IMG/VR virus record: IMGVR_UViG_3300018426_000141
Span: 1-25,442 of that record
Length of the DNA stretch: 25,442 bases
Reading direction: 5' to 3' (one strand)
Origin: a virus
Shown here: positions 315-2,147 of the stretch, in pieces
Layout of the letters: each line of letters begins with the position of its first letter
Position numbering within the stretch: the first letter of the stretch is position 1
Position numbers and translations under genes: made by a program
Notes under the pieces: generated by a model
The model's input: the letters and a program-made list of their open reading frames with translations, nothing else
Databases searched by the model: none
Told to the model about the DNA's origin: nothing

Positions 315-512
315 TTATGCTTTCATGGCTGCTGTATAATCAGCAGTCATTTTTTCTGTTGCACTGGCCCAAGTTTTGGCAAATTCAGTGTTTGCATCAG
401 CCATAGCTCGTACAGGTTTTGTGTACTGTTCGCTTGGGTCAATTGTGTTTAGGAAAGTTTTTGTTTGTGTGTGGATTTGATCCACAAGGTTTGTAAAAAA
501 TTGTGCTTGCAT
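315..512 (-). CDS. Small phasin-like protein, 65 aa
   Basis: A short, helical, Ala/Thr-rich protein with FFTNLVDQIHTQTKTFLNT near the N-terminus and TWASATEKMTADYTAAMKA at the C-terminus. The spacing of aromatic and small residues recalls phasins, which coat polyhydroxyalkanoate granules, but it is much shorter than typical phasins (over 100 aa), so the likeness may be only compositional. The start is well supported by AAAAGGAG about 7 nt before ATG. It lies directly upstream of hsp20 and downstream of a T4-type late box at 569-576, with a leader of about 50 nt. Phasins and small heat shock proteins both bind hydrophobic surfaces, so a shared chaperone-like role is conceivable but unproven. 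Confidence 0.65.
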   Translation of the reverse strand: MQAQFFTNLVDQIHTQTKTFLNTIDPSEQYTKPVRAMADANTEFAKTWASATEKMTADYTAAMKA

Positions 513-576: not shown

Positions 577-909
577 ATCTGAGGGCTAACCGTGGCCCTC
601 AACGTGCTTATTACGTAGCAACCCTTCTATCTGTTTTTCTAGTTGTCCTGCTATAATTCTTATCTAGCAGGTCTCCTTTCTTTTTACAGTTAGGTAATGT
701 GATAGGTGGGACTAAGGATTACCCACAACCGCCTCAACAGATCCTGTCTAAATTCAGCGGAACCTCACAATAGAATGGTAAGTTCTATTTTTTCTGCAAC
801 TCCCAGTCTCCTGAGTCTTACAGCGCCACCACAGCGTGTGAGTCAAGTTAATGCCTCTGCGAAGCATCGTTTCCTTGCACTATCTATAACTACACCGTCG
901 TGTTGTTAT
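577..909 (-). ncRNA. Structured non-coding stretch: candidate ncRNA or long 5' leader
   Basis: This 437-bp gap (513-949) is the only long gene-free stretch in an otherwise packed window. It begins just after a near-perfect sigma70 promoter (916-944). The minus-strand transcript can form several hairpins: ATGCTTC/GAGGCAT with a 3-nt loop near 846-867, AATAGAA/TTCTATT (769-775 with 783-789), CCGC/GCGG enclosing ACAG/CTGT near 730-760, GTGGG/CCCAC near 705-726, CCTGCTA/TAGCAGG (647-653 with 665-671) and GAGGGC/GCCCTC (581-600). I found no tRNA T-loop motif or known riboswitch signature. It may be a free RNA or the 5' leader of the phasin-hsp20 transcript. The plus strand is possible too: TGCTATAAT (649-657) resembles an extended -10, and the hairpin at 769-789 is followed there by a T run. 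Confidence 0.35.
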
Positions 910-949: not shown

Positions 950-1195
950 TTATTCCAAAATTCCTTGATTTTTTAATTTTTCTACTTGTTTGAGCCACCG
1001 CTTGCGGGCTTGCGCCTTTTCACGCTTGCGTTTTAAACTGGGCTTTTCATAGTATTCATGTTTGCGCATGTCTTTGACCATGCCTTCATTGTTCATCATT
1101 TTTTTGAGTTTGCGCATTGCACGACCTACATCGTTGTTGCGTACCTCTACATAAAGACCCTGTTTGTCATGCTCTGGTTTGAAGTTCCTGTTCAT
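950..1195 (-). CDS. rpsU: Ribosomal protein bS21, phage-encoded
   Basis: An 81-residue basic protein with the bS21 core: a VEVRNND strand near residues 16-22, the helix GRAMRKLKKMMNNEG, then RKHEYYEKPSLKRKREKAQA and a Lys/Arg-rich tail. Length and order match bacterial bS21 (about 70 aa). bS21 sits on the 30S platform beside the 3' end of 16S rRNA, near the anti-Shine-Dalgarno, and aids mRNA engagement. Phage bS21 homologues are known from marine and other phages. The start is the ATG at 1195, which overlaps the IF3 stop as ATGA and has GAGGA 5 nt upstream; an in-frame ATG at 1255 would run deep into IF3. Translational coupling to IF3 implies joint production. The replacement of host bS21 on ribosomes is inferred. 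Confidence 0.93.
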   Translation of the reverse strand: MNRNFKPEHDKQGLYVEVRNNDVGRAMRKLKKMMNNEGMVKDMRKHEYYEKPSLKRKREKAQARKRWLKQVEKLKNQGILE

Positions 1196-1719
1196 TCTTT
1201 CCTCGTGAGTATTCCAATTAGCCTGTTGCCATTCAGACTTGGTTTGGTATCCCAATCTGTATTGTCAATACAATCAACTATACGCTCCATGATACCAAAC
1301 CCTTGTTGTTTGTTGGCATTTTCTCTACCTCTGTATCTAATAACACACTTTACTTTGTTGCCTTTGCTTAAAAACTTTTCAATGTTTTTGATCTTGGTTT
1401 CAAAATCGTGTTGGTCGATACCTAGTCTAAATTGCATCTCTTTGATAACAATTTTATTTTCTCTTTGACGCTTGGCTGCTTCTTTTTCCTTGCGTTTTTG
1501 TTCGTAGAAATATTTATTAGCATCCAATAGTTTTGCCACAGGAGGATCACTTTTTTCGCTGATCACCACTAGATCTGTGTTCTGTTGTTTGGCTATGTTC
1601 AATGCTTGTTGCAAGCTCATTACACCAAACTGTTCTTGATCGCCTACTACTCTCAGTGTGGAGTATTTGATGTTTTCGTTTATGGGTTGTTTTGGAGCAG
1701 GTTTTTGAAACTTACGCAT
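1192..1719 (-). CDS. infC: Translation initiation factor IF3, phage-encoded
   Basis: At 175 aa this is a full-length IF3 with both domains. The N-domain has PINENIKYSTLRVVGD (12-27), LQQALNIA and DLVVISEKSDPPVAKLLD (49-66). A Lys/Arg/Glu-rich linker helix follows (73-90), then the C-domain with IKEMQFRLGIDQHDFETK (92-109), IEKFLSKGNKVKCVIRYRGRE and the GIMERI segment. In bacteria IF3 binds the 30S platform, keeps 50S away, and proofreads the initiator tRNA and start codon, rejecting non-AUG starts and leaderless mRNAs. It is TAATG-coupled to the gene upstream and ATGA-coupled to bS21 downstream. All domains look intact, so I infer it is functional. An IF3 in a phage is unusual. Confidence 0.95.
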   Translation of the reverse strand: MRKFQKPAPKQPINENIKYSTLRVVGDQEQFGVMSLQQALNIAKQQNTDLVVISEKSDPPVAKLLDANKYFYEQKRKEKEAAKRQRENKIVIKEMQFRLGIDQHDFETKIKNIEKFLSKGNKVKCVIRYRGRENANKQQGFGIMERIVDCIDNTDWDTKPSLNGNRLIGILTRKE

Positions 1720-2147
1720 TATACACCCAGTCCTTCTAAAACAACTTCACTATACTCTTCGATACTGTCTACCACAGTAAAGCTGGTTGTGTTTTGTGTG
1801 CTATTCAACAGTTTGGTCAATCCTTTCTTTCGATTGCTTTGATTTACAAACACTGTGTTTTTGCAGTTCAAAAGCACAATGGCCAAAGCCAGTTCATTGA
1901 GATCATCCATGTCCACATAAACTGTGTCACTGAACCTAATCATACTTATCAACCAAGCCATGTTGGCTTCATTAACTTTACCGCTGGGGTGATAGATTGT
2001 GACGCTTACACTTTTGAAAATATGTTCATACAGTGTTTCAACTTGTTGAATAAATTCTTGTTTACTGCTAACAATTGTCACTATCGGTCCACTCTCTGGC
2101 AATAGCATGTCAGGTGGAGTCACAGTGTAAATGGCATTTTCCCTCAT
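1719..2147 (-). CDS. Unknown protein, 142 aa, in the IF3-bS21 operon
   Basis: Not recognised. It is probably a mixed alpha/beta soluble protein: beta-like strands such as PIVTIVSS (21-28), VSVTIYHPSG and TVYVDMDDLNELALAIVLLNC (about 75-95), with no membrane segment or signal peptide. The alternation of short hydrophobic strands and helices recalls a Rossmann-like or receiver-like fold, but no catalytic motif is evident. It lies 6 bp after the large coiled-coil gene and its stop overlaps the IF3 start as TAATG, so it is co-translated with IF3. No strong Shine-Dalgarno precedes its ATG, which suggests translation by coupling from the gene upstream. Confidence 0.8.
   Translation of the reverse strand: MRENAIYTVTPPDMLLPESGPIVTIVSSKQEFIQQVETLYEHIFKSVSVTIYHPSGKVNEANMAWLISMIRFSDTVYVDMDDLNELALAIVLLNCKNTVFVNQSNRKKGLTKLLNSTQNTTSFTVVDSIEEYSEVVLEGLGV

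Follow-up and report, generated by a model that had tools for sequence, protein, structure and literature searches.

The stretch of DNA analyzed here (hereafter the window) comprises 25,442 nt and is the IMG/VR virus record IMGVR_UViG_3300018426_000141, whose virus is known from environmental DNA alone. Its annotation revealed a cassette of three overlapping genes, designated 'up', infC and rpsU, followed by a manA RNA. The distinguished features are:

1719..2147 (-), 'up', first gene of the cassette, 142 aa; its TAA stop codon overlaps the infC ATG (TAATG)
1192..1719 (-), infC, complete two-domain translation initiation factor IF3, 175 aa (Pfam, PHROG, AlphaFold)
1201..1204 (-), GAGG, Shine-Dalgarno motif of rpsU, within the last infC codons (from the sequence)
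1192..1195 (-), ATGA, overlap of the infC stop and rpsU start codons (from the sequence)
950..1195 (-), rpsU, ribosomal protein bS21, 81 aa (Pfam Ribosomal_S21)
696..908 (-), manA RNA (Rfam RF01745), ~40 nt 3′ of the rpsU stop codon; 56.0 bits against a gathering threshold of 55.2, E = 5e-12
manA RNA 3′ of rpsU in relatives: L003, 5799-6002; L005, 5813-6014; L006, 5813-6021; L010, 5782-5985; L016, 6560-6763

Elsewhere in the window, matches to ribonucleotide reductase genes, an exonuclease, an endolysin-like hydrolase and head proteins were found. G001, a viral contig of 172 kb with genes for head proteins and a phage DNA polymerase, contains most of the predicted genes in the order seen in the window. 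On the basis of the virus record and this common gene order, the window was recognized as phage DNA, as the first-pass annotation had presumed; contamination with host sequences was rejected, since the synteny with G001 extends across most of the window. Neither the window nor G001 yielded any tRNA genes.

The manA RNA is encoded on the same strand as rpsU and lies ~40-50 nt past its stop codon in five of the six cases (the window, L003, L005, L006, L010 and L016); it was not found in six other relatives. The genes that follow in G001 include a 65-aa ORF and a gene of the IMP dehydrogenase/GMP reductase family (PF00478), and this fits the described association between manA RNA and genes for nucleotide synthesis (PMC2864571). 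The 65-aa ORF is also present in the window (315-512, minus strand, 3′ of the manA RNA; 85% identity in G001). Its product has no Pfam or PHROG match, and a guess that it is a phasin received no backing from Pfam. A sub-threshold match to the ROSE_3 RNA thermometer (35.3 bits; gathering threshold 43) was noted 3′ of the cassette in L018 (6168-6232).

IF3 and bS21 encoded by the cassette

The first-pass annotation had predicted a complete two-domain IF3, adjacent to bS21 and overlapping with it as ATGA. Searches for IF3 similarity confirmed the first part of this prediction. Both Pfam domains were matched over their full length (IF3_N, E = 5.7e-24, 70/70 positions; IF3_C, E = 1e-24, 86/86 positions), as was PHROG 9787 (phrog_9787, "translation initiation factor"; E = 3e-48), and the AlphaFold model fits IF3 structures, including IF3 bound to the 30S subunit (5lmn_X; TM 0.81/0.84). 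In this model (pLDDT 86, pTM 0.52) the relative placement of the two domains is uncertain. In Escherichia coli IF3, the C-terminal domain binds the 30S subunit through nine basic residues, R99, K110, R112, R116, R129, R131, R133, R147 and R168. The window protein is basic at eight of them (R99, K110, R112, R116, R129, R131, R133 and R147; E. coli numbering), and at the position of R168 it has an Asn adjoining an Arg.

The window bS21 was identified by Pfam Ribosomal_S21 (E = 1e-18; 67.1 bits against a cut-off of 27). It has an N-terminal extension and, in the C-terminal arm, the signature ARKRWLK, common to the phage bS21 proteins of this clade with few exceptions. The Trp of this signature is absent from all 17 bacterial bS21 sequences recovered. 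In pairs with unsaturated dS, dN/dS was 0.07-0.20 for bS21 and 0.07-0.24 for IF3; the coding sequences indicate that IF3 is under strong purifying selection.

The predicted overlap was also borne out, the infC stop and the rpsU start sharing the ATGA at 1195-1192. The junction takes this form in 31 of 60 relatives, whereas most of the rest have the rpsU ATG a few bases farther into infC. The context GAGGAAAGA-ATGA recurs across relatives; the GAGGAAAGA preceding the rpsU start is at the same time infC coding sequence.

An AUU-type start codon, of the kind discriminated by IF3, was not met with in infC: the gene starts with ATG in the window and with ATG, TTG or GTG in relatives. These codons are described as canonical and as escaping discrimination by IF3 (PMC4611024), and autoregulation through a non-canonical AUU start was rejected. 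TTG or GTG starts occur in L044, L047, L065, L066, L082, L084, L091, L096, L097 and L100, and also in Vibrio phage 2.275.O, Atu_ph07 and Phosso. Unlike infC in these lineages, 45 of the 46 annotated neighbor genes checked start with ATG. Parsimony on a quick tree gave at least five changes of the infC start codon.

Distribution and variants of the cassette

When viral contigs, several of which are near-copies, were scanned with a profile, 64 viral IF3 loci were obtained. In 60 of these bS21 is encoded directly 3′ of IF3; the exceptions are L097-L099, which represent one phage type, and L102, where the contig ends. The 'up' gene is located directly 5′ of infC in 60 of the 64 loci as well (exceptions: L097-L099, and L055 at a contig end). 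On the 146-kb record of L098 no bS21 was found. Neither bS21 nor 'up' was found near infC in any of 109 bacterial loci (about 3 kb or less on each side). Comparison of the viral with the bacterial loci shows that the pairing of IF3 and bS21 is not due to chance.

Among 60 Pseudomonadota genomes, infC adjoins rpsU only in the gammaproteobacterial MAG MED685, on a contig with the phage cassette (up-infC-rpsU at 3001-3489 of L103), and this is the only IF3 found in the bin. L103 is probably a phage contig placed in the wrong bin, whose infC could be taken for that of the bacterium, and the presence of this contig in MED685 is no proof of a host.

In a scan based on 'up', IF3 is encoded in all 53 loci and bS21 in 52, the sole exception being a short piece. 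The order up-infC-rpsU, with overlapping genes and embedded signals, is kept at IF3 identities of 36-79%. A nucleotide search with the cassette against GenBank phages returned no match.

The second arrangement of these genes lacks infC. Of the 80 loci obtained with a bS21 profile, 56 have IF3 nearby; in 15 of the remaining 24, which lack it, a homologue of 'up' directly overlaps rpsU (L297, L299-L305, L312, L313, L320, L322, L325, L331 and L337). IF3 was not found on the five up-rpsU records searched, including contigs of 275 kb and 357 kb. It follows that infC was either gained by or lost from an up-rpsU operon.

The 'up' protein has no Pfam or PHROG match. Its AlphaFold model (pLDDT 85) matched one viral model well in Foldseek (BFVD A0A6J5TA11; E = 8e-9, TM 0.85), and matches in the PDB were weak (best E = 2e-3). 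These matches suggest a Rossmann-type fold resembling that of nucleoside 2-deoxyribosyltransferases. Since 'up' stays with rpsU in both forms of the operon, its product probably contributes to the same function.

Phage IF3 lineages and described systems

The relationship of the window IF3 to bacterial IF3 was examined in trees. In the quick tree, in which the window group comprised 43 distinct IF3 sequences, the 32 window-clade IF3s were set apart together by a branch with an SH-aLRT of 92, the bacteria lying in other parts of the tree. In a careful tree with fewer rows the base was not resolved, Verrucomicrobiota were placed near the window clade with weak support, and just 26% of the bootstrap trees kept the clade on one side. 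Placement of all phage-lineage IF3s on one side was neither shown nor rejected (AU p = 0.28). Nesting of the window IF3 within one of the sampled bacterial phyla has no support, the window clade being placed outside the sampled bacteria, and on these results the window-clade IF3 can be described as old and divergent; a recent capture of a host infC is not supported. The IF3s of the records MT121966 (SC_8_H2H8_2017) and MK672802 (Va_90-11-286_p16) fall among Pseudomonadota. In MK672802 the gene follows thrS and precedes the genes for L35 and L20 (thrS-infC-L35-L20), as in the usual bacterial operon, and this record therefore probably includes host sequence.

The assumption of the first-pass annotation that a full IF3 is rare in phages holds only loosely, as dozens of jumbo phages have an annotated IF3 and tblastn with the window IF3 matched 61 GenBank phage records, some of them bacterial-type sequences or unannotated fragments. 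As presented in the part of the 2020 study of Al-Shayeb et al. considered here (PMC7162821), huge phages encode IF1, IF3, S1, S4, S21 and L7/L12, the S21 being N-terminally extended, and a takeover model proposes that phage IF3 and bS21 intercept host initiation. Phage-encoded IF3 and S21, which belong to that interception set, are both present in the window. Two differences were noted: a coupled IF3/bS21 operon is not described in that part of the paper, and the long contig closest to the window, G001, is 172 kb in length, below the 200-kb limit for huge phages, although it lacks end repeats and is possibly incomplete, the window itself being a 25-kb fragment.

Vibrio phage 2.275.O (MG592671) resembles the window in that an annotated IF3 is followed, 10 bp apart, by bS21 (gene order IF3-RpsU3-L7/L12-ClpS-like). 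However, its IF3 groups with those of RaK2-like jumbo phages, outside the window clade, its bS21 is only remotely similar (HMM E = 4e-9), and no 'up' was detected. The RaK2-like and Atu_ph07-like jumbo phages (121Q, GAP32, Munch, Phosso and AP-J-162) also encode an IF3 of PHROG 9787, and such phages (Phosso, Atu_ph07, GAP32 and RaK2; 43-49% identity) are the nearest GenBank relatives of the G001 DNA polymerase. In contrast to the window, their IF3 genes adjoin ClpS or Clp ATPase genes in the loci examined, not bS21. Phage AP-J-162 has IF3, S21 and L7/L12, with bS21 located ~15 genes away from IF3 (PMC11242549).

The bS21 proteins of Pelagibacter phage HTVC008M and Methylophilales phage Melnitz share 41-49% identity with that of the window over the aligned part; tblastn of GenBank phages gave no IF3 match in either record. 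Incorporation into ribosomes has been shown for the HTVC008M protein (PMC6375957). Pelagiphage bS21 enters E. coli ribosomes, which gave ~5% of product in a commercial in vitro translation kit, and missing viral or host factors were suggested as the reason (PMC6375957). Many phages have bS21 but no IF3 (PMC9723584), as was also the case for many of those searched in this study.

The window phage is thus neither the first with an IF3 nor the first carrying both genes. What the compared sequences add is the coupled up-infC-rpsU cassette, kept across many phages; no description of an IF3-bS21 operon was found in the open-access papers searched.

Possible role in translation initiation

The genes of G001 have ordinary Shine-Dalgarno sites. 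A match of at least 4 nt was found for 57% of first ATGs versus 18% of internal ATGs, and one of at least 5 nt for 29% versus 4%, which speaks against a need for different start rules. A takeover independent of Shine-Dalgarno sequences, or a wholesale change of the rules of initiation, is not supported.

The first-pass annotation had also assigned to IF3 and bS21 a shared role in initiation, and conservation of the cassette, the rpsU signals embedded in infC and purifying selection all back this view. The most likely explanation, which we hold with moderate confidence, is that IF3 and bS21 of the phage are functional, are produced together and act on the host 30S subunit, keeping initiation going or biasing it towards phage mRNAs. 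The eight of nine 30S-contact residues, the fold match to 30S-bound IF3, the low dN/dS, the adjacency in 60 of 64 viral loci and the embedded rpsU signal were counted in favor of this reading. So was the ~5% activity of pelagiphage-bS21 ribosomes (PMC6375957), as a phage IF3 produced together with bS21 is a candidate for a missing factor, although the pelagiphage itself gave no IF3 match; plain incompatibility with E. coli may explain that result equally well. The up-rpsU operons without infC on the 275-kb and 357-kb contigs were counted against this reading, as were the many phages with bS21 but no IF3, which indicate that phage bS21 does not generally require IF3. With ordinary start sites in G001, moreover, nothing shows that phage mRNAs need special ribosomes.

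According to the proposed mechanism, one translationally coupled operon, up-infC-rpsU, would supply the phage with its own working IF3 and bS21, which would act at the platform of the host 30S subunit. There, host bS21, which is exchangeable, would give way to the phage protein, and the resulting 30S subunits would initiate with phage IF3. Initiation would be kept going, or biased to phage mRNAs, while the host protein supply falls. Ribosome binding by the pair, cooperation of its members and a preference for phage mRNAs are inferred; the pair may influence the choice of mRNAs on which host ribosomes initiate.

It is also possible, with a lower probability, that phage IF3 and bS21 only top up factors lost in host shut-off and leave the choice of mRNAs unchanged. 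None of the conserved IF3 contacts, the strong purifying selection or the normal Shine-Dalgarno sites in G001 needs an altered specificity. However, IF3 and bS21 are specifically components of initiation, and the phage bS21 has a clade-specific N-terminal extension and a C-terminal-arm Trp not seen in the bacterial bS21 proteins recovered.

More tentatively, phage IF3 could be the cognate factor for ribosomes with phage bS21, creating a phage-specific 30S platform that favors phage mRNAs; the near-inactivity of pelagiphage-bS21 ribosomes (PMC6375957) would then reflect the lack of a partner of this kind.

A chance insertion of infC into an older up-rpsU operon, with no specific link to bS21, appears unlikely. 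The operons lacking infC agree with it, as do L097-L099, in which IF3 has neither neighbor, but the gene order kept among divergent IF3s, with its overlaps and embedded signals, argues against it, as does the IF3-bS21 adjacency in the distant Vibrio phage 2.275.O. Least probable of all is that phage bS21, or the pair, poisons host initiation, e.g. late in infection: E. coli ribosomes with pelagiphage bS21 are ~95% inactive (PMC6375957) and Bacteroidetes phages express their bS21 late (PMC9723584), but the IF3 retains active-factor residues under purifying selection, and a poison would also hit phage mRNAs, whose start sites are ordinary.

For the mode of action of phage ribosomal proteins, known since 2019, the conserved pairing of bS21 and a full initiation factor in one operon points to a concrete partner and allows a direct test, for which the natural up-rpsU and up-infC-rpsU variants provide a ready comparison. 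A second candidate phage translation protein is the product of 'up', a gene that is coupled to rpsU whether infC is present or not.
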